From the NCBI GenBank assembly GCA_016219225.1, contig JACRBX010000309.1, positions 1-32,645 of the forward strand: a stretch of DNA of 32,645 nt, in the 5' to 3' direction. Both the position numbers and the translations under genes were made by a program. This document shows positions 1,630 to 30,698 of this stretch, one piece after another (position 1 is the stretch's first letter; each line of letters starts with the position of its first letter). Source of the stretch: Deltaproteobacteria bacterium. GTDB taxonomy: Bacteria > Desulfobacterota > RBG-13-43-22. The notes beneath the pieces were generated by a model. The model saw only the letters and a list, made by a program, of their open reading frames with translations, ran no database searches and was not told the origin of the DNA.

Positions 1630-3933
1630 ATGAAAATGACCGACCCAGGAGATCGATGTGAAGCGGCCCTGAGCCAAAAGGAAAAAGAGCTTACTCAGAT
1701 CATTCAAGGCCTTTCCATAGCCGCCTTTGTTTTCGATTCCCGGCATGTGATTACCCATTGTAACCGGGCCTTTGAAAAAATGACCGGCCTTTCGGCCCAG
1801 GAGCTTATTGGAACCCAAGATCATTGGAAGGCCTTTTATCCGACCCAAAGACCCATCCTGGCCGATTATATCGTCAATAACGCTTCCGAAGAGGAAATCG
1901 CCCAGAGATACCCTGGAAAGGTTAATAAATCCGCTCTTATCGAAGGGGCTTACGAGGTGGAGGATTATTTCCCCAACCTGGCCGGAGGGGGCAAATGGCT
2001 TTTTTTTACCGCGGCCCCCATTTTGGATGAGGAAGGGAAAATAATCGGGGCCATCGAAACCCTGCAGGATATCACCGACCGAAAAAAGGCGGAAGAAGCC
2101 CTAAAAAGAACGGAAAGGCGGATGAATGCCCTCCTGGATTTTGAACCCTACCCGGTAGTGGTCTTCACCCTGGATGGGCGGGTAAATTACCTGAATCCAG
2201 CCTTTACGGAGATATTCGGCTGGACCCTGGAAGAGCTGGAAGGGAAGCGCATCCCCTATGTCCCCCCCGGTTTGGAACAAGCCACCCAGGAGGGTATAAA
2301 AAGACTCTTGAAAGAAAGGATTATCCTTCGCTCCGAAACCCAGAGGTTGACCAAGGACGGCCGGGTCCTGGATGTGGTCATCCGGGCAGCGGTTTTTTCG
2401 GTTTCCACGGAAGAACCAGCCGGACAAATCGTTATTATCCGGGATATTACCCGGGAAAAGCAGATTGCCCGGAACAATGAAGCCATGATCAAGATCAGTA
2501 TGGCCCTTCCGGAATATCCGGACCTGGAAGATCTGCTTTATTATATTAATAGCGAAGTAAAAGGCCTGTTGAATACCGAAGGGGCTATTGTCATCCTGCA
2601 TGATGAATTGAAAGGAGATCTTTTCATCCTCGGCGCCGCTTATGATGATATGTCTATGGAAAAAAAGGCCGGAGAAGTCCGGTTCTCGATAGATGAATTG
2701 ATAGCCGGGCGGGTTATCCAGTCCGGAGAGCCTTTGATACTGAACGATTTTTCCAAAGACCGGGAAATCCATCAGGAGCGGGATAGAAGGCTGGGTTATA
2801 AAACCCAAAATTTGGTCCTGGTTCCTCTGAAAAGCGTTGACCGCATCATCGGGACCTTATGTGCCATCAATAAAAAAACCGGGACGTTTGACCAATCGGA
2901 TATTGAACTATTGAATATGATCGCCGGTACGGTAGTCCTTTCCATTGAAAATGCCCGGGTCACCGAAGAACTTAAAAAAGCTTATCGTGAGGTAACCAGT
3001 CTCAACCGGGCCAAGGATAAGGCGATCAATCATTTGTCCCACGAACTGAAGACGCCTTTAGCCATCCTTTCAGGGTCTTTTAATGCGCTCATCAGGAAAT
3101 TGGGCGCCCTTTCCGAAGAAACCTGGAAACCGGCCGTTGAGAGAATCAAACGGAATCTGGATCGTATTTTAGAGATCCAATATGAGGTGGACGACATCAT
3201 CGCCGATAAAGAACAGAAAAGCTATGGTCTTCTTTCCATCCTGTTAGACGAATGCGCCGACGAACTTTCCACCCTGGTGGCACTGGAGACCGGCCAGGAA
3301 CCCTTGGCCGAAAGGATCAGACAAAAAATTGAGTTCCTCTTCGGGCCCAAAGAGGCGACGGCCCAGGAGATCCATCTGGAGCAATGGGTCGGCCAAAGGC
3401 TGGAGACTTTAAGGCCCCGCTTTTCTCATCGGCAAATTGAGATCGTCAGCAACCTTTCTCCAGCTCCACCTATTCTGTTATCACCGGAAGTGCTCGGGAA
3501 GGTAATAGACGGCCTGATCCGGAATGCCGTAGAGAACACCCCGGATGAGGGCAAGATCGAAATAGCCGTTCAAAAGAAAGGGAAAGGGGCTTTATTTACC
3601 ATCCACGATTATGGGGTAGGTATTACCGAAGAGGACCAGAGAAGGATCTTCGAAGGATTTTTTCCGGCCCGGGCGACCATGAGTTATTCTACCAAACGGC
3701 CTTACGATTTTAATGCCGGTGGCAAAGGTGCCGACCTGTTGCGGATGAAGATCCTGTCCGAGCGGTTTGGGTTTCAGATCACCATGACTTCCACTCGCTG
3801 CGGTTTCATACCCAAAGAAGAAGACCCCTGCCCCGGCCGAATCGGTTCCTGCCCTCAAAAAGAAGAATGCCTCCACTCCGGGGGAACGACCTTTTCCGTT
3901 TTTTTCCCGCCGGCCGCAGAGATCCAGTCGTAG
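1630..3933 (+). CDS. Sensor histidine kinase, PAS-PAS-GAF-HisKA-HATPase, with four-cysteine insertion
   Basis: This is a soluble sensor kinase of 767 residues if started at the ATG at 1630. AAGGA lies 4 bases upstream of that ATG and 10 bases upstream of a second in-frame ATG at 1636. An open frame back to 1513 is less likely to be used because it reads out of the repeat element. Visible parts are PAS at about 20-150, PAS at about 160-285, GAF at about 295-445, and a HisKA helix with H471 in NHLSHELKTP. A long helical linker follows, then an ATPase domain with RNAVENTP (N box) and DYGVGI (G1). No membrane segment is seen, so it senses cytoplasmic signals. Close to the end, C724, C734, C741 and C747 form C-x9-C-x6-C-x5-C just before the final GGTTFSV strand, a candidate metal, Fe-S or redox site. 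There is no adjacent response regulator, so it is an orphan kinase. Confidence 0.88.
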   Translation: MKMTDPGDRCEAALSQKEKELTQIIQGLSIAAFVFDSRHVITHCNRAFEKMTGLSAQELIGTQDHWKAFYPTQRPILADYIVNNASEEEIAQRYPGKVNKSALIEGAYEVEDYFPNLAGGGKWLFFTAAPILDEEGKIIGAIETLQDITDRKKAEEALKRTERRMNALLDFEPYPVVVFTLDGRVNYLNPAFTEIFGWTLEELEGKRIPYVPPGLEQATQEGIKRLLKERIILRSETQRLTKDGRVLDVVIRAAVFSVSTEEPAGQIVIIRDITREKQIARNNEAMIKISMALPEYPDLEDLLYYINSEVKGLLNTEGAIVILHDELKGDLFILGAAYDDMSMEKKAGEVRFSIDELIAGRVIQSGEPLILNDFSKDREIHQERDRRLGYKTQNLVLVPLKSVDRIIGTLCAINKKTGTFDQSDIELLNMIAGTVVLSIENARVTEELKKAYREVTSLNRAKDKAINHLSHELKTPLAILSGSFNALIRKLGALSEETWKPAVERIKRNLDRILEIQYEVDDIIADKEQKSYGLLSILLDECADELSTLVALETGQEPLAERIRQKIEFLFGPKEATAQEIHLEQWVGQRLETLRPRFSHRQIEIVSNLSPAPPILLSPEVLGKVIDGLIRNAVENTPDEGKIEIAVQKKGKGALFTIHDYGVGITEEDQRRIFEGFFPARATMSYSTKRPYDFNAGGKGADLLRMKILSERFGFQITMTSTRCGFIPKEEDPCPGRIGSCPQKEECLHSGGTTFSVFFPPAAEIQS

Positions 3934-12154: not shown

Positions 12155-12571
12155 ATGCCGATCCTATCCCAGATCGCCCTGCCGGCCAGGCTGGAACGTC
12201 TTCAGGCCTTCCTGCACCTGGCTACTCAATGTGCCCGGCAACAGGGCCTTTCCGATAAAAAAATCCATGAGATTGAATTGGTCCTTGAAGAGGCCCTGGT
12301 CAATGTGTTTCATTATGCCTATCCCGGAAAGGATGGGGAGGTAGAGGTGATTTGCCGGACCGATCCAGGAGGACGTCTGATCATTGAAACCATCGATACA
12401 GGACTTCCCTTTGATCCCCTTTCTCTGGAGGATCCGGACCTGACCCTGGATGTGGCTGAAAGGAAGGTCGGCGGGCTTGGGGTCTACCTGATGAAAATCC
12501 TGATGGATGAGGTGCACTACCGGCGGGAAGGAAACAAAAATATTCTGACCTTTGTGGTCTATCCAAAATGA
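12155..12571 (+). CDS. RsbW/SpoIIAB-type serine kinase (anti-sigma-like)
   Basis: This 138-residue GHKL-fold protein kinase phosphorylates the STAS antagonist and sequesters a target when the antagonist is phosphorylated. The N box EEALVNVFHYAY contains E46 and N50. The G1 box DTGLPFDP starts at D81, and the G2 box GGLGVYLMK covers 106-114. All ATP-binding features are intact, unlike in the divergent fusion protein. It lies 6 bases after the STAS gene, and its stop overlaps the next start by four bases (ATGA at 12568-12571). The sequestered target may be a sigma factor elsewhere, the acetyltransferase fusion protein, or a non-sigma partner such as a diguanylate cyclase or chemotaxis component. 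Confidence 0.9.
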   Translation: MPILSQIALPARLERLQAFLHLATQCARQQGLSDKKIHEIELVLEEALVNVFHYAYPGKDGEVEVICRTDPGGRLIIETIDTGLPFDPLSLEDPDLTLDVAERKVGGLGVYLMKILMDEVHYRREGNKNILTFVVYPK

Positions 12572-13557
12572 AAGAAAAAGTTTTTTCTATCTTCCTTTTC
12601 CTGCTTTTATTTGCCCCCTCGGCTTTAGCCGCCGATAGGCCTTATCTAAAAAAAACGGCCTTTATTCCCCATTGGTCTCCCCAGGCCCAATTTGCCGGAT
12701 ATTACCTGGCTTACGAAAAAGAGTTTTATAAAAAACACGGCCTCGACCTGACCATTATTCCCGGCGGCCCTCACCGCTCACCCCTTGACCATCTCCGCCA
12801 AAAGAAGGCCGACTTCGGGAGCCTCTGGCTGTGCTCGGCCATCGAAAAACGGGGTCACGGCCTTAACCTGATCAATATTGCCCAGATCATGCAGAAATCG
12901 GCCCTGATGCTGGTGGCCAAAAAAGGGAGCGGCATCAGGACCCCCCAGGACATGAACGGAAAAAAAGTCGGCCTCTGGCGCAATGAATTTCAAATCCAGC
13001 CCCGGGCCCTTTTTAAGAAATATAATCTTAAAGTCAGAATCATCCCCCAATCCTTTTCCGTCAATCTGTTCCTGCAAGGCGGCGTGGATGTGGCCTCGGC
13101 CATGTGGTACAATGAATTTCATACCCTCCTCAATTCCGGTTTGAACCCCGAAGAATTGAGCACTTTTTTCTTTTTCGATTACGGACTGAATTTTCCGGAA
13201 GACGGTCTCTATTGCCTCGAGGAGACCCTCAAGAAAGATCCGGAATTGATCAGGACCTTTGTCCGGGCCAGCCTGGAAGGCTGGCTCTACGCCTTTGACC
13301 ATCCCGAAGAGGCCCTGGATATCATCTTGAAGCACATGCGCCTGGCCGGAATACCGGCCAACAGGGTCCACCAGCGATGGATGCTGGCCAGAATGAAGGA
13401 TTTGATCGTCATCCCGGAAGGCCAGGAATCCCTGGGAAGGCTCAAAGAAGGCGATTTTCAGCGGGTCGCCGGGGAGCTCAAAAAAATCGGTTTGATTAAA
13501 GAGGTCCCTTCCTTTACATCCTTTTACCACGACCAGATCGATCATGTTCAAAAATAG
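12568..13557 (+). CDS. NMT1/THI5-like periplasmic solute-binding protein
   Basis: This 329-residue exported binding protein of the NMT1/THI5/SsuA type begins with a signal peptide (Lys-containing N-terminus, Leu/Phe core, cleavage near ALA-AD at residue 21). The lobe-1 hallmark FIPHWSPQAQFAGYYLAYEK is typical of the pyrimidine/ThiY branch of the superfamily, as are GLDLTIIPGGP and the later MNGKKVGLW. No ABC permease or ATPase gene is adjacent. Instead it sits between an RsbW-type kinase and a Cache-domain phosphatase, overlapping both. This argues that it presents a ligand to the sensor rather than to a transporter. The ligand could be an aminopyrimidine, a sulfonate or another small organic molecule; the sequence does not decide. 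Confidence 0.85.
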   Translation: MKEKVFSIFLFLLLFAPSALAADRPYLKKTAFIPHWSPQAQFAGYYLAYEKEFYKKHGLDLTIIPGGPHRSPLDHLRQKKADFGSLWLCSAIEKRGHGLNLINIAQIMQKSALMLVAKKGSGIRTPQDMNGKKVGLWRNEFQIQPRALFKKYNLKVRIIPQSFSVNLFLQGGVDVASAMWYNEFHTLLNSGLNPEELSTFFFFDYGLNFPEDGLYCLEETLKKDPELIRTFVRASLEGWLYAFDHPEEALDIILKHMRLAGIPANRVHQRWMLARMKDLIVIPEGQESLGRLKEGDFQRVAGELKKIGLIKEVPSFTSFYHDQIDHVQK

Positions 13558-15508
13558 AAGTCTCGCCTTTAAGCTGACTCTTTTCTTTTTAGCCATCAGC
13601 CTCCTGATTTTCTCAACCCTCCTGGCTTACACCTATCGCTATTCCCGGGAGATCATCCAGGTCAATCAGGAGAAAGATGCCCGTAATCTGGTCATAACGA
13701 ATGCCATACGCATAGAATCGGTGCTCACCGCCGTCCAGAAAGTCACCCAGGGTCTGGCCGATCGCCTGGAACTTTCCCCTTGTTCCAAAGAGGAAATTTT
13801 GACCATGATCAGGACCGCCCTGGAACATAATCCGGAAATCTACGGTTCTGCCGTGGCCTTTGAACCTTACGGCTTTGATAAAAAAACGCCCACTCTGGCC
13901 CCTTATTTCCATCGCCAGGGAAAGGAAATCGAATTTGCCGACCTGGCTAAGGAATCCTACTCCTACCTTCAATGGGACTGGTATCAAATCCCCAAAGAAC
14001 TCTCGGTCCCCCAGTGGAGTGAGCCTTATTTTGACGAAGGGGGCGGTAATATTGTCATGGCCACCTATTCCATGCCTTTCTACGGTAAGATCGGGGGGAA
14101 AAGACGTTTACGGGGTATCGTGGCCGCTGATGTCTCCCTGGAAGGCCTTCAGAAAATCGTTTCGTCCATCAAAATCCTTAAGACCGGCTATGGATTTCTG
14201 ATCTCCAAAAACGGCACCCTGGTCACCCATCCCTCCAAAGAGTTGATCATGAACGAGACCCTTTTCGGGGTGGCCGAAGCCCGGGGTGATGCCCGGCTGC
14301 GGGAAATCGCCCGAAAAATGATTAGAGGGGAATCCGGTTCCCTTCCCTTCCGGGATCTCGTTTCCCCCCAAAAATGCTGGATGACCTACGTCCCCATCCC
14401 TTCCAGCGGCTGGTCCCTGGCGGTCCTCTTCCCCATAGACGAACTGACGGCCGATATCAACCGTCTGTACCGGATTATGATCGTCCTGTCCGTCACCGGA
14501 TTGGCCCTTCTTTCCTTGGCCGTGATCTTTATCTCCCGGACTATTACCCGTCCACTGAGGGCCATGGCCAAAGCCACCGAAGACATTGCCAGGGGGAACC
14601 TGGACAATCCCCTTCCCTTGGTGACCTCCGGCGATGAGGTGGGGCGAATGACCGAGGGCTTCATGGCCATGCAGAAATCCCTGAAAGAATACATCCGGAG
14701 GCTCACCGAGACCACAGCGGCCAAGGAAAGGATGGAGAGCGAACTCAATATCGCCCATCAGATCCAGATGAGCATTCTCCCCAAGATCTTTCCCCCCTTT
14801 CCCGACCGTCCGGAGTTCGATCTGTTCGCCATCATCGAGCCGGCCCGGGAGGTAGGCGGCGACTTTTATGATTTCTTTCAGATCGACCCCACCCATCTCT
14901 GCTTTGTCATCGCCGACGTTTCCGGCAAAGGGGTCCCGGCTTCTCTGTTTATGGCCGTCACCAAGACCCTGATCAAGGCCACGGCCAAGGTCGGGATTTC
15001 CCCGGCGGAAATCCTGACCCGGGTAAATAATGAATTGGCCTCGGGCAATGAAGCCGTCATGTTCGTCACTGTTTTTTGCGGCATCCTGGATACCGAGACC
15101 GGAGAGATCCTTTACGCCAACGCCGGACATAACCCGCCGCTGCTGATCCATAAGGGGGGTCAGGTATCCTATTTGCAGAAATCAGGCGGATTGGTCCTGG
15201 GCGTTATGGAGGATATGTCCTATCGGGTGGAGAGTCTTCGTCTGGAAGCCGGGGAATGTCTGTTTATGTACACCGACGGGGTAACTGAGGCTATGAATAC
15301 CAGGGAAGAATTGTTTTCCGAAGAGCGGTTGCACCAGGAGCTGTCCCGATCGGTCCAAAAACCCATCCAGGAAATGGTCTCGACGCTGATGCAAGAGGTC
15401 AAGGTTTTTTCCGGAGAAGCCCTCCAGTCCGATGACATCACCTTGATGGTCCTGCATTATAAAGGGAAAAATCCTTTTCCAGACTTACCTTACAAGACGC
15501 CCTTCTGA
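13544..15508 (+). CDS. Membrane-bound Cache-HAMP-SpoIIE serine phosphatase (RsbU-like)
   Basis: This 654-residue inner-membrane sensor phosphatase should dephosphorylate the STAS protein of this operon. TM1 lies at about 9-31. A periplasmic double-Cache sensor follows at about 32-305, with WSEPYFDEGGGN, ATYSMPFY, GIVAADVSLEGL and GYGFLISKNGTLVTHP. TM2 is at about 309-331 and HAMP at about 332-385 (TITRPLRAMAKATEDIARGNLD). A short coiled coil precedes the PP2C/SpoIIE domain, about 400-645. Metal-binding aspartates are D440 in GGDFYDF and D458 in IADVSGKG. It begins 14 bases inside the binding-protein gene, so translation is coupled. Its last 19 bases overlap the 3' end of the convergent chemoreceptor gene. 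Confidence 0.92.
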   Translation: MFKNRSLAFKLTLFFLAISLLIFSTLLAYTYRYSREIIQVNQEKDARNLVITNAIRIESVLTAVQKVTQGLADRLELSPCSKEEILTMIRTALEHNPEIYGSAVAFEPYGFDKKTPTLAPYFHRQGKEIEFADLAKESYSYLQWDWYQIPKELSVPQWSEPYFDEGGGNIVMATYSMPFYGKIGGKRRLRGIVAADVSLEGLQKIVSSIKILKTGYGFLISKNGTLVTHPSKELIMNETLFGVAEARGDARLREIARKMIRGESGSLPFRDLVSPQKCWMTYVPIPSSGWSLAVLFPIDELTADINRLYRIMIVLSVTGLALLSLAVIFISRTITRPLRAMAKATEDIARGNLDNPLPLVTSGDEVGRMTEGFMAMQKSLKEYIRRLTETTAAKERMESELNIAHQIQMSILPKIFPPFPDRPEFDLFAIIEPAREVGGDFYDFFQIDPTHLCFVIADVSGKGVPASLFMAVTKTLIKATAKVGISPAEILTRVNNELASGNEAVMFVTVFCGILDTETGEILYANAGHNPPLLIHKGGQVSYLQKSGGLVLGVMEDMSYRVESLRLEAGECLFMYTDGVTEAMNTREELFSEERLHQELSRSVQKPIQEMVSTLMQEVKVFSGEALQSDDITLMVLHYKGKNPFPDLPYKTPF

Positions 15509-17097
15509 TTATTAAATTCACCTTCTTCCATAGACATCAACTGGTCCGGCCCAATTTCTCTAAAAGAAATGCTCTCCGGTTTTTTATCATTGCCCATGAG
15601 ATTCGTTTTGGCAAAGGGCTTTCCCGGATTCGATGACACGGGTTGCTTAACGGCCACCCACTCTTTTCTATTTCCATTGTGGTTCCTTCCGATGGCCCTG
15701 ACCAGGTCCTCGACAAATTCTTTCATCTGTTCGGCCTGGGTATTCAATTGCTCGGAAGCGGAAGCCGATTCTTCGGCACTCGAAGCATTCATCTGAACCA
15801 CCCGGTCCATTTCGGAGACGGCTTTGGTGATCTGCTCGATTCCCTGGGCCTGTTCTTTGGAAGCAGCGGAAATCTCATCCACCAACTTAGCGACTTTCCT
15901 GGACCGGGCGGATACCATCTCAAAAGCCTGATTTGTTTTGATCAAGGTATCCGAACCGCCTTTTACTTTTTTGAGCGTTTCTTCGATTATAGCGGCCGTA
16001 TTTTTGGCCGCTTCCGCAGCCCGCATGGCCAGGTTTCTTACTTCATCAGCCACCACGGCAAAACCGGCCCCGGCATCCCCGGCCCGGGCCGCTTCAACCG
16101 CGGCATTCAAGGCCAGCAGGTTGGTTTGAAAGGCGATTTGATCGATGGTCTTGATGATCTTGCCGGTTTCCTCACTGGTCACGGCTATCTCTTTCATGGA
16201 ATCGGTCAATTCCCTCATGGCTTTGTTGGCTTCATCCACCACCTGACCGGTATCCATCATCAATTTATCGGCCTGATCGGCATTTTCGGCATTCTGTCTG
16301 GTCATGGAGGCCATCTCTTCCATGGAGGAAGAGATCTGCTCCAGACCGGCGGCTTGTTCGGAGGCCCCTTCAGCCAAAGACTGGCTGGCGGAGGAAACCT
16401 GGGCTGAAGCGGAAGCGGTTTGATCAGAGGCATCGGTCAGGCCGAACATGATTTTCTTCAACATCAAGATAATATTGCGGCCCAGGAAAAAGGCAACGGC
16501 GATCAGGGCCAGAGAAAATATCAGACCCAGGGAACCGACTATTTTTTGGTTGGAATGGGTGATATCGACTAATACCTGGTCGCTTATGACATTCTTTTTG
16601 ACTTCCGCCCGCATGGTATCGAAGGTTTCAATTAACTGGCGAATAATCGGCCGGGTAGTTTGAAGGTAGACCTTCTTGGCCCCCTCCCGGTCTCCTTTAA
16701 TCAAAAACGCATTTATCTGTTCTGCCGATTGATGCAAAAGGGCGTGGGGTTCCTCCATAGCGGCCAGAAACTTACTGATATAGGGACCGATGCGTTCCGC
16801 CTCCTTGCGTCCTTCCCCGTAAAACCATTTCCCAAAGGCGCATTGATGGGGGTCAAACTGGACCGCAAGGGGTTTGAAGTCCGTGTCCAGTAAGGCGTTG
16901 GCGACCTTCCGGCCCCAAATAAGATGATCCAGTTCCGACTGGGTCAATATCCGTTCGATTTCCTTACTTTTCATGACCCCTTTGGCGTTATTCAGAATCC
17001 TCCCTGCTCCTGAATAAGCCAAAAAACTGATTAAAATAAGGGCTGAAATTCCCAATCCAAAGCCAATGGCGATTTTTTTCCCAAGCGTGAGTTTCAT
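15490..17097 (-). CDS. Methyl-accepting chemotaxis protein with periplasmic CZB-like zinc-binding domain
   Basis: This 535-residue chemoreceptor has TM1 at about 9-29 and TM2 at about 186-208. Between them is a helical sensor carrying H58 (HLIW), C86 (CAFGKW), H118 and H122 (HALLH), which together match the CZB zinc-binding pattern. CZB domains are mostly described as cytoplasmic; here the site falls outside the membrane. The cytoplasmic part has no clear HAMP domain but a full signalling hairpin, including IDQIAFQTNLLALNAAVEAARAG and FAVVADEVRNLA. Methylation helices flank it. No C-terminal CheR/CheB pentapeptide is obvious. AAAAGGAAGG precedes the ATG. It is convergent with the phosphatase gene. 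Confidence 0.9.
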   Translation of the reverse strand: MKLTLGKKIAIGFGLGISALILISFLAYSGAGRILNNAKGVMKSKEIERILTQSELDHLIWGRKVANALLDTDFKPLAVQFDPHQCAFGKWFYGEGRKEAERIGPYISKFLAAMEEPHALLHQSAEQINAFLIKGDREGAKKVYLQTTRPIIRQLIETFDTMRAEVKKNVISDQVLVDITHSNQKIVGSLGLIFSLALIAVAFFLGRNIILMLKKIMFGLTDASDQTASASAQVSSASQSLAEGASEQAAGLEQISSSMEEMASMTRQNAENADQADKLMMDTGQVVDEANKAMRELTDSMKEIAVTSEETGKIIKTIDQIAFQTNLLALNAAVEAARAGDAGAGFAVVADEVRNLAMRAAEAAKNTAAIIEETLKKVKGGSDTLIKTNQAFEMVSARSRKVAKLVDEISAASKEQAQGIEQITKAVSEMDRVVQMNASSAEESASASEQLNTQAEQMKEFVEDLVRAIGRNHNGNRKEWVAVKQPVSSNPGKPFAKTNLMGNDKKPESISFREIGPDQLMSMEEGEFNNQKGVL

Positions 17098-27532: not shown

Positions 27533-27832
27533 ATGGAAAAAAATCTATCTAAAACTTTTAATCATGGTTCCATTGAAGAATTGTTCGGTAACATATTAAA
27601 ACAACTAAGAAATGATAAAAATTTATCACAAGAGTCGCTTGGGTTTGAGAGCGGCTACCACCGAACTTATATAAGCTTGCTTGAGCGCGGCAAGAAGAGC
27701 CCTTCATTAAAAACCATTTTTCAATTAGCAAAAGCTCTGGGCATAAAACCATCAGAAATCATGGACCGGCTCCAGGCGTTGTATCCTGATTATTCCAAGA
27801 AGAAGCATCCCAGGGGTAGGGTGAAAAAATGA
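27533..27832 (+). CDS. Controller (C) protein of the restriction-modification system, XRE-type HTH
   Basis: This small DNA-binding regulator has 99 residues, with one helix-turn-helix at about 18-75. The fold segments are LKQLRNDKNLSQESLGFES, then YHRTYISLLERGKKSPSLKTIFQLAKALGI, close to known C proteins (HRTYIS.LERG..SPSL). It has a basic C-terminal tail. A C-box and overlapping promoter lie directly upstream. The last four bases overlap the start of the endonuclease gene (ATGA), so both are made from one message. It should activate its own promoter at low level and repress at high level, delaying endonuclease expression until DNA is methylated. Base composition here is AT-richer than in the neighbouring operon. 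Confidence 0.88.
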   Translation: MEKNLSKTFNHGSIEELFGNILKQLRNDKNLSQESLGFESGYHRTYISLLERGKKSPSLKTIFQLAKALGIKPSEIMDRLQALYPDYSKKKHPRGRVKK

Positions 27833-28440
27833 AAATTGTTGAGACTCACGATATTTTTTCCGTGGGTCTATTCTCAAAATCAGAGGCATGGGATATCGCG
27901 TGTAAGCAGGTAAAAGATGCGATCCACGCCACTGATTGGCCACATGGATCGGGAAAGTTCACAATTTATCCTCAGAGTGGGAAAAAACGAGGAGAGGGGA
28001 ATGGCGTCGTTCCTATTAAAAAACCTTGTATCGAAAATCTCAAAAAATCAGGATGGCTAACGGAAAAGCTACCTCCCCTTGATAAGGGTGTTATTCACCC
28101 CGGTGATTTGGATGCACTTTTCATGTGTGACGCTGGATACATAGGATTTGAATGGGAAACAGGGAATATTTCTTCCAGTCATCGGGCGATCAATAAATTA
28201 CTTCTTACTATGCAGGTAGGAGGTCTTGTAGGCGGATTTCTCATTGTTCCCGGCAATAATCTGAAAACCTTTTTGACTGATCGCATAGGGAATATTGGAG
28301 AACTGAGGCCATACCTGCCCCTCTGGAGTTCAATCCCCATCAGAGAGGGTGTTTTGCGTATTGAGGTGGTAGAGTTTGACGCGGTAAGTTTGGATGTGCC
28401 CAAGATCCCGAAAGGCACGGACGGGAGAGCCCTGCAATAA
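27829..28440 (+). CDS. Type II restriction endonuclease, BamHI-like
   Basis: This 203-residue protein resembles the BamHI family of homodimeric type II endonucleases. The active-site region reads GDLDALF followed by GFEWETGN. D95 (or D93) and E108-x-E110 give a D...ExE arrangement, as in BamHI (D94, E111, E113), rather than the usual ExK. E69 in CIENLKKSGW could match the fourth acidic residue of BamHI. Other family-like segments are ATDWPHGSGKFTI, a NISSSHRAINKLLL helix, LTDRIGNIGELRPYLPLW, and a C-terminal DVPKIPKGTDGRA. Its product and specificity (GGATCC or a relative) are inferred, not shown. It is co-translated with the controller protein and ends 3 bases from the convergent methyltransferase stop. 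Confidence 0.82.
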   Translation: MKIVETHDIFSVGLFSKSEAWDIACKQVKDAIHATDWPHGSGKFTIYPQSGKKRGEGNGVVPIKKPCIENLKKSGWLTEKLPPLDKGVIHPGDLDALFMCDAGYIGFEWETGNISSSHRAINKLLLTMQVGGLVGGFLIVPGNNLKTFLTDRIGNIGELRPYLPLWSSIPIREGVLRIEVVEFDAVSLDVPKIPKGTDGRALQ

Positions 28441-28443
28441 TAG

Positions 28444-29811
28444 TTAACTCTTTTGAAGTATAATAATATTCTCTTTTCGCATAGTGTTTGAGATTCCCAT
28501 GATGGAGCGGCTCATCATTTTTATGAGGACAAAATTTAACTTTGAGCCCATTTCGATGAGGATCTCATGAAGCCCCGGCACTTCTTCTGGTGGCATTTTT
28601 AATGCCTTACTAAGCTGATTATCATTTGTCCCAATAATAATTGTACAAAACTTTCCGGAACGCAAAATACGTGAGCATTCCGAGAGTACCTTCTCCATGT
28701 CCTTTTTATAGAGCTCGAATTTCTCGGATAAATTTCTACCCCGGAGTCCTATCATTTTATCTCGAAGACTTTCGATTTCCACACCTAAAAAATTCAAATG
28801 AATGGCATCATTGTCGATGTAGTCAATGGCAAAGCTATAAGGCGGTGAAAAAATAATGCCATCAATGGATGAATCCTCAATGGGAATATCCCTTGCATCA
28901 GCTTCGATCACTCTGGAGGGGGCGAGATCTGCTTCAGTACCTGCCAAGACATTTTGGATTTTATTCGCAACGAAGATATATCTCTCGAGAATTGCCTTGA
29001 ACTGTTCGAGAGGATTCTTTCTTTGGCTTCTTTCTGAGTATCCGGCACTGTCTAAAAACGCTAAAAGAAGAAAATTATAAGTATCGGAGGTTTCTTTTTG
29101 TTGTTTCGTTAGTCCACTCCGGTTTTGGTTTGCAAGGTATTCCGCCGCCTGATCCATAACAGATACTGTATCACCGGATATTTTGTTATTGGGAGTTTTT
29201 GTCCCAATGTTTGGTTTCCCAATTTTATTCTTAAAATACTCAAAGACTTCCCGGTAATTATTTAAAGCCTTGTGTGCCCGGGTTAAGGACATGGTGATGG
29301 TGTCAATTTTTATCTGAGTCATTAATCTGCAAAAAGGGCTCGCGTCAATACCTATTGAATGTATCCCCATCAATGACGCTTCAACCAGCACAGTTCCAGA
29401 GCCCATCATAGGATCAAATACTGTATGGCCAGGTTTGATACCCATTATGTTAATAAGCCCCTTTACCATCTGAGGGTGAAATTTTCCTCGATAGGGGAAA
29501 AGGCCATGGGTTGCATAGCCCGTTCTGAAAATATTTTTTTCAAAGAAAGACTTTAGTCTGGAAGAGGAATGAGAAGGCAATCTTAAGGACTCACCAGTAC
29601 ACATCCTGAAATGTCTGGTATATGTATCACTTATACGAGCAAAATAGGCCCCGTTCTTGAGCAACTCCTCGACGGATAAAATCTGTTTTTCATAAAAGGC
29701 AAGTTCCAATTCATATAATTCATTAAGGTTCGGGACTAATTGATATTCAGGCGGGAAGAGGTTTTCGTTTAGGCTCCGGGAGAGAATATCAGCGATGTTT
29801 TGGTGTTTCAC
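28444..29811 (-). CDS. DNA methyltransferase with SPPY motif (N4-cytosine or N6-adenine type)
   Basis: This 455-residue amino-methyltransferase has an N-terminal extension of about 100 residues. YRGKFHPQ follows near 107-114, then the AdoMet-binding motif VFDPMMGSGT (131-140) with GIDAS after it. The catalytic motif FSPPYSF has SPPY at 322-325. Motif I precedes motif IV. SPPY is most often, though not only, seen in N4-cytosine enzymes, which would suit a BamHI-like partner. It is downstream of a second methyltransferase (14-base gap) and convergent with the endonuclease. It should protect host DNA from that endonuclease. Which of the two enzymes does so cannot be decided from sequence. Confidence 0.88.
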   Translation of the reverse strand: MKHQNIADILSRSLNENLFPPEYQLVPNLNELYELELAFYEKQILSVEELLKNGAYFARISDTYTRHFRMCTGESLRLPSHSSSRLKSFFEKNIFRTGYATHGLFPYRGKFHPQMVKGLINIMGIKPGHTVFDPMMGSGTVLVEASLMGIHSIGIDASPFCRLMTQIKIDTITMSLTRAHKALNNYREVFEYFKNKIGKPNIGTKTPNNKISGDTVSVMDQAAEYLANQNRSGLTKQQKETSDTYNFLLLAFLDSAGYSERSQRKNPLEQFKAILERYIFVANKIQNVLAGTEADLAPSRVIEADARDIPIEDSSIDGIIFSPPYSFAIDYIDNDAIHLNFLGVEIESLRDKMIGLRGRNLSEKFELYKKDMEKVLSECSRILRSGKFCTIIIGTNDNQLSKALKMPPEEVPGLHEILIEMGSKLNFVLIKMMSRSIMGISNTMRKENIIILQKS

Positions 29812-29825
29812 GTTCTGACCTCGGT

Positions 29826-30698
29826 TTATCTTTCTATATAATCCTCGGATTTGTGAGGGCTCAGGTCCTCTGTCTGCAGTCTCTCAATAATGACGTCACA
29901 GTTCTCAATCTCCATCCCAATCCAATGACGCTCCAGCCTTTCACACACATCATAGGTAGTACCGCTCCCACCAAAAGGGTCCAATACAATATCGCATACA
30001 TTCGTAGAAATTTGAACGACACGTTCAAGAAGTTTCGTGGATAATTGATTGGCTGATCTCTTGCGGCTTTTAAATTTCCAATGTCTAACCGGCGTGATGT
30101 CGTTCCAAACATCCGTTAGATTTACTCCTTTAGGATTCATCGCTCCCCTATGTCCGCCATAATCCTTAAGTTCTTTGCCACAATGCCTGCAGATTTCTAT
30201 TGGTGTTCGAATTTTTCTGAAAGTCTTTGGATTGCCTTTAGTGAAATAAAGCAGGCTATAATGAGAAGGGTAAAGCCTGCCCGGGATCGGCAATGTAAGT
30301 TTTATATTTACGGCAATCCAATGCCTAAACATCATTCCAATTTCGATCAGGTAATTACCCAAAATAATATTCCACCTCGGGAGGTTATAAACAAAAATCG
30401 CACCCCCGGGTCTAATAACGCGGAAACATTCATCCAACCAATTTTTGCACCAGCAAATATATTCATCGTCAGAACGATTATCGTTTACTTTGGCCCCATA
30501 TACTTTTGAAAGGTTAAAAGGGGGATCAGCAAATACAGTATCAATGGATTCACTTCGGATAAATGGGAGAAGTTTTTGGATATCTCCCCTATAAAGCACA
30601 CCCATTGTTGTTAAATATGCAATTTTATCCTCGATTCCTGGTTCAATTGCATTTCCCGGTATCCGGATTTTTTTATCGATTAAAGCTTGTTGAGTCAT
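29826..30698 (-). CDS. Beta-class DNA methyltransferase with DPPF motif
   Basis: This 290-residue methyltransferase has motif IV first (VFADPPFN, DPPF at 58-61) and the AdoMet motif last (VLDPFGGSGTT, about 238-248), the beta-class order. DPPF points to N6-adenine methylation, though N4-cytosine cannot be excluded. A small C-x2-C element (C170, C173 in ICRHCGKE) with nearby His may bind zinc in the target-recognition part. It starts the two-gene methyltransferase unit, with no clear ribosome binding site before the ATG, so a leaderless message is possible. Its presence next to a second methyltransferase suggests that two bases, or both strands of an asymmetric site, are protected. Confidence 0.88.
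   Translation of the reverse strand: MTQQALIDKKIRIPGNAIEPGIEDKIAYLTTMGVLYRGDIQKLLPFIRSESIDTVFADPPFNLSKVYGAKVNDNRSDDEYICWCKNWLDECFRVIRPGGAIFVYNLPRWNIILGNYLIEIGMMFRHWIAVNIKLTLPIPGRLYPSHYSLLYFTKGNPKTFRKIRTPIEICRHCGKELKDYGGHRGAMNPKGVNLTDVWNDITPVRHWKFKSRKRSANQLSTKLLERVVQISTNVCDIVLDPFGGSGTTYDVCERLERHWIGMEIENCDVIIERLQTEDLSPHKSEDYIER

Follow-up and report, generated by a model that had tools for sequence, protein, structure and literature searches.

The window, by which we mean the whole 32,645-nucleotide stretch of DNA that was analyzed, encodes on its plus strand (1630 to 3933) a histidine kinase whose Pfam and NCBIfam matches give the domain order PAS-PAS-GAF-HisKA-HATPase_c. The frame is open from a GTG at 1513, which would give an 806-amino-acid (aa) product, and we infer that translation starts at the ATG at 1630, for a protein of 767 aa. 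The two PAS domains (1705 to 2472; residues about 65 to 195 and 199 to 320 of the 806-aa frame) are found with both Pfam and NCBIfam, and the GAF domain (2521 to 2946; residues 337 to 478) is found with Pfam PF01590/PF13185. The HisKA phospho-acceptor helix (3013 to 3177; PF00512, 39.5 bits against a cutoff of 26.9) contains the sequence SHELKTP, with the histidine codon at 3040 to 3042. The HATPase_c (CA) domain (3493 to 3912; residues 661 to 800 of the 806-aa frame), which is supported by PF02518 (49.3 bits against a cutoff of 26.4) and by structure models, carries what we take to be the N box, the G1 box (DYGVGI), and the G2 box (GGKG, 3718 to 3729), together with an ATP lid conserved in its family. 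The last strand of the domain, GGTTFSVFFP (3880 to 3909), was located by sequence, is a strand in both AlphaFold2 models, and is presumably the G3 or GT motif.

With its phospho-acceptor histidine, its N, G1, F, and G2 boxes, and its fold, the protein is a HisKA/HATPase_c kinase. In alignment A2, which has 80 rows (the window kinase and 79 other sequences, with L037 present twice and with L063, which a pattern missed, and a minus-strand copy in L043 left out), HisKA residues S25-H26-E27 and T30-P31 and residues N187, D215, G217, G219, F229, G252, G253, and G255 are invariant in 80 of 80. Autophosphorylation and phosphotransfer by standard histidine chemistry are predicted. No membrane segment is detected in the window kinase by the rule used (highest 19-residue mean, 1.59; limit, 1.8). 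A 4Fe-4S dicluster protein gene (312 to 1049) lies upstream and an MFS transporter gene lies downstream on the opposite strand, and no regulator gene adjoins the kinase gene.

Elsewhere in the window, adjoining plus-strand genes for a HATPase_c_2 (anti-sigma-like) kinase, an NMT1/THI5-like binding protein, and a Cache-HAMP-SpoIIE phosphatase (12155 to 15508) look like a partner-switch operon. A minus-strand gene (15490 to 17097) encodes a chemoreceptor (MCPsignal) whose N-terminal side carries a CZB zinc-binding domain, at residues 58 to 128. A BamHI-type restriction endonuclease gene (PF02923, E = 2e-42) is followed by two N6/N4 DNA methylase-like genes on the other strand (27829 to 30698).

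Conservation and spacing of the cysteines

The window kinase has 8 cysteines in 767 residues, and 4 of them fall within 24 residues (3799 to 3870, plus strand; codons 3799 to 3801, 3829 to 3831, 3850 to 3852, and 3868 to 3870). Counted from the ATG at 1630, these are residues 724, 734, 741, and 747, and they lie in the sequence TSTRCGFIPKEEDPCPGRIGSCPQKEECLHS, inside the Pfam HATPase_c match, after GGKG and before the GGTTFSVFFP strand that begins at 3880. The initial annotation had placed four cysteines at these residues between the G2 region and the last strand, and the translation, the codon positions, and the HATPase_c match all agree with this. It had also described the insertion as C-x9-C-x6-C-x5-C, which is correct for the window protein but is not the usual form of the family, whose canonical motif has five cysteines, C1-x9-C2-x6-C3-x2-C4-x5-C5. 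The window form is three residues shorter, with the CxxC reduced to a single C (the fourth cysteine in order is missing), so that the single Cys 741 meets x6 behind it and x5 ahead of it.

A first search of 59 genomes gave 12 matches in 8 genomes, with the window's own genome among them, and the loop is readable in 12 of 12, although in one of these (L030) it breaks off after the third cysteine. Among 19 other kinase frames of the window's genome (loci L003 to L020), the G2 pattern was recognized in 16, and all 16 have an ordinary short turn at this position.

In order to avoid selecting for cysteines, we built a cysteine-blind profile (A3) that ends before the first cysteine. Searched against 395 genomes of one phylum (Desulfobacterota, judging from the names of relatives), it identifies 105 family members, distributed over 53 genomes. 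The highest E value among them is 2.3e-33, and the next matches are four generic kinases in four more genomes (E = 2e-19 to 9e-19); matches below 100 bits, of which the next score 67 and below, were left out of the counts. When the loop is made part of the profile, the family is picked up in 54 of the 395 genomes and in 40 of 246 genera. One of these genomes, G159, is included by virtue of a fragment, and this fragment and a second one in G292, both found with the cysteine-containing profile and both with four cysteines in the loop, stand outside the sets of 105 and 175 members. The larger set of 175 distinct members combines the 105 with the window kinase and with relatives from 84,980 species genomes (79 loci kept from the best 80 of 423), so that these relatives lean toward close relatives of the window kinase, while the 105-member set does not. 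Among the named loci, which are mostly metagenome-assembled genomes, 78 of 79 are titled Deltaproteobacteria, Desulfobacter-type, or Thermodesulfobacteriota, and one is titled Pseudomonadota bacterium; the kinases thus come from bacteria related to sulfate reducers. Four plasmid records and six phage records contain kinase-like matches, none of which extends beyond query residue 136, close to where the insert begins, and none covers 80% of the query. In viral contigs there are three distant relatives, whose matches reach residue 281 of 322 at most.

At least four cysteines are present in 104 of the 105 members found irrespective of cysteines, and in 174 of all 175. This excludes the poor conservation in homologues that the initial annotation had given as the outcome that would refute its proposal. 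In the 105-member set, C1 is kept in 105, C2 in 101, C3 in 105, and C5 in 104 (one of these shifted); 67 members have all five cysteines, 32 lack C4, and 4 lack C2, and the remaining two are L201 and L030. The alignment of all 175 members gives similar values (C1, 175; C2, 171; C3, 174; C5, 173), and the two C5 exceptions are L201, in which the cysteine is merely shifted, and L030, in which the last strand is missing. The L030 gene (454 to 1977, minus strand) ends after the third cysteine, without C5 or the last strand, and is possibly decaying.

The spacing is rigid among the 175 members, with x9 in 174, x6 in 175, and x8 from C3 to C5 in 171. The cysteine columns rank beside the Asn, Asp, and Gly of the ATP site, while the other insert positions are variable (mean majority, 0.50). 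Since few columns of the domain are as well conserved as these cysteines, we consider the knuckle to be more than a product of chance. Four conserved cysteines at fixed spacing are what is expected of a (Cys)4 knuckle, and this is what the family has.

The fifth cysteine behaves differently. C4 is absent from 36 of 175 members, and it changes state at least 10 times, compared with two changes for C2, on a rapidly computed tree from which the insert columns were excluded (a weakly supported tree, with 46 of 172 inner branches well supported, on which the changes carry no direction of gain or loss). With C4 variable, four cysteines seem to be constrained. C4 is present wherever C2 (4 sequences) or C3 (1 sequence) is absent; the sequence without C3 is the minus-strand copy in L043. 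The retention of C4 where C3 is missing, together with the single cysteine at this position in the window kinase, suggests that one cysteine of the CxxC pair is enough and that the site has four ligands. Apart from C4, the cysteines are lost too rarely for a shuffle test of the four-cysteine minimum to reach significance, and the case for this minimum is therefore the pattern itself.

Structure models and comparison with known systems

For the HisKA-CA region of the window kinase, the AlphaFold2 model averages a pLDDT of 72.8, and the 10-residue blocks containing the insert score 76 to 88. For the CA domain of a five-cysteine relative (L035), the values are 87.9 overall and 90 to 95 in the insert blocks, while the ATP lid is at 47 to 73. 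Apart from one short helix, the L035 insert is modeled with hardly any regular structure, and a fold of this type predicted with confidence is the usual outcome for metal knuckles. The model places the insert between the last two CA strands, beside the GT motif, which lines the adenine pocket in GHKL ATPases. The conservation of the cysteines and these models give good support to a putative metal site within the ATP-binding domain, as proposed in the initial annotation; it would hold Zn or Fe-S.

All of the fold-search matches listed, at most 50 per search, are to ordinary kinases or to CA domains of such kinases, the CA fold matches including ZraS (9jfj_A; VIA-align Z of 18.7, root mean square deviation [rmsd] of 1.8, 150 residues) and YycG (4zki_B; Z of 18.0, rmsd of 1.9, 144 residues). 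ZraS, YycG/WalK, and HK853 share the common CA fold, and their H, N, G1, and F motifs are also found in the window kinase. In contrast, where ordinary HisKA/HATPase_c kinases have a turn before the last strand, the family has the knuckle, and its lid and G2 stretch, KRPYDFNAGGKGxDLLR, is conserved within the family and specific to it. The best-matching stretches of the 21 PDB sequences found by the profile all end by profile position 242, before G2, and the C-terminal insert region of one member has no PDB sequence match. The C-terminal 56 to 74 aa of three members have no Pfam match at E values up to 10 with HMMER filters on, and in these stretches Pfam identifies no known zinc-finger or ferredoxin-type domain.

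Several described systems resemble this arrangement in part. SrrB of Staphylococcus aureus has redox-reactive cysteines in its CA domain, but these form an intramolecular disulfide and are not conserved in all staphylococci, and the excerpts consulted mention no metal site (PMC8774646, PMC12189002), whereas a metal knuckle is predicted for our family. The sensor kinases NreB and AirS carry an Fe-S cluster, which in excerpted accounts is at the N terminus or in an N-terminal sensor domain rather than in the catalytic domain. FixT of Caulobacter, as excerpted, likewise has a four-cysteine motif added to a two-component domain, but it is a kinase-inhibiting receiver with a [4Fe-4S] cluster and a closer spacing, C-x2-C-x2-C-x4-C. 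The titles and abstract beginnings of the open-access papers that literature searches listed gave no description of the motif or of the kinase family, which does not prove its absence from print. The excerpted passages of the Desulfobacterium autotrophicum genome paper count kinases without mention of the motif (PMC2702500).

Input domains, a co-occurring regulator, and the probable role of the knuckle

We compared the genes around 135 kinase loci, looking for a consistent context. In the 132 kinases with a recognized HisKA box (the box is unrecognized in 3), no membrane segment is predicted for 127. The stretch before this box ranges from about 50 to more than 700 residues, with some records cut by contig ends. 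Ten members, picked for variety rather than at random, have GAF alone, a membrane segment with GAF, PAS alone, PAS-PAS-GAF-GAF, three or four PAS domains, two GAF domains, or no recognized sensor. Since it is kept across such widely differing N-terminal parts, the knuckle belongs to the catalytic engine and not to one sensor. The largest cluster of neighbors consists of 15 genes located divergently upstream (15 of 122 upstream neighbors) and is identified as Rex-like from one scanned representative (PF06971 and PF02629). A Rex-like redox repressor gene is accordingly placed divergently upstream of the kinase at L166 (5138 to 5776) and at 14 clustered loci; a Rex-type gene is also present in the window's genome, on another contig (C1).

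A receiver-profile match (the profile having been seeded with the regulator described here) lies directly beside only 10 of the 135 kinases, and six of these ten belong to one regulator family. In the window's own genome, a second copy of the kinase (L002) is followed by two receiver proteins, and the C-terminal tail of one of them has no Pfam domain. The tail consensus, from 37 sequences, is approximately gWkrlfekL..fF..rfG.dW....fW. At an E value of up to 1e-18, the regulator family is present in 58 of the 395 genomes: 53 of 54 kinase genomes compared with 5 of 341 others (Fisher p of about 1e-58, a value that overstates the association because common ancestry is ignored). G200 is the only kinase genome that lacks it, and a 56-residue piece with 52% identity is present there. 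Four of the regulator-only genomes (G004, G015, G265, and G368) yield generic kinases only when searched for the kinase family at a loose threshold (best E = 7e-15), and the fifth, G001, has a borderline regulator match (E = 7e-19). There are up to five kinases per genome, and some genomes have at least eight regulators, with no more than eight candidates per genome scored in either search. The co-occurrence partly reflects common ancestry, but based on 53 of 54 compared with 5 of 341, this regulator family is probably the partner of the kinase family. Tandem receivers with a C-terminal tail that has no Pfam match are found at L002 (2469 to 3134) and on contigs C250 and C64 of the window's genome, and L179 (2499 to 3767) encodes a fusion in which a tailed receiver follows a second HATPase_c domain.

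We consider it probable that a metal-folded (Cys)4 knuckle is an obligatory part of the CA domain and that the kinase phosphorylates the co-occurring regulators. The four cysteines would bind one metal center (Zn2+ or an Fe-S cluster), which would fold the 24- to 27-residue knuckle found just before the GT motif, where other CA domains have a turn joining their last two strands. Such a knuckle would be obligatory in the catalytic domain of the mostly soluble, mostly orphan kinases of one phylum. It would most likely hold the last hairpin and the conserved ATP lid in working shape or form a docking face, and the kinase would pass phosphate, often in trans, to a member of the regulator family. 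A constitutive structural or docking role is our first choice and the most likely one, since no intact member among the 175 has fewer than four cysteines.

The initial annotation had suggested that the knuckle couples redox state to kinase activity, and this is possible. A redox- or O2-labile Fe-S cluster, probably [4Fe-4S], that gates the kinase as a family-wide second redox input is a reading that we hold to be rather unlikely on balance, yet it is a serious rival because of the lineage of 78 of the 79 named loci and the precedents for redox control. Most cultured representatives of these groups are anaerobes, and the precedents in the excerpted literature are NreB, AirS, the SrrB disulfide, and the [4Fe-4S] receiver FixT. 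Four near-invariant cysteines with one extra variable cysteine would also suit a cluster, as would the Rex-like genes divergently upstream. Against it, the knuckle is kept with different N-terminal parts, and its loss from no intact member is unusual for a facultative sensor; retention in 174 of 175 members with differing N-terminal parts is explained no less well by an obligatory structural site than by a sensor.

A metal-free thiol-disulfide switch, of the kind known from the SrrB CA domain, where in the excerpted reports a disulfide tunes kinase activity (PMC8774646, PMC12189002), appears very improbable, since a switch needs two cysteines and the four found here, spaced and jointly conserved with CPG and CxxC, resemble a metal knuckle. 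The variability of the other loop positions is what would be expected if the loop were specific to the lineage and its cysteines functionless, but the near-complete retention of four cysteines in the set assembled without regard to them makes this scarcely credible.

The catalytic domains of histidine kinases are commonly seen as interchangeable engines under outside control. A near-invariant metal site in the ATP-binding domain would be a direct point of control or of stability within that engine, and the co-occurring regulator family outlines a signaling network. If the site instead holds an Fe-S cluster, any kinase of the family, irrespective of its N-terminal sensor, could respond to O2, NO, or redox state within a private network of several orphan kinases and several regulators that carry the family-specific tail, which we regard as unlikely; redox gating would then be a property of the catalytic engine and not of a sensor domain.
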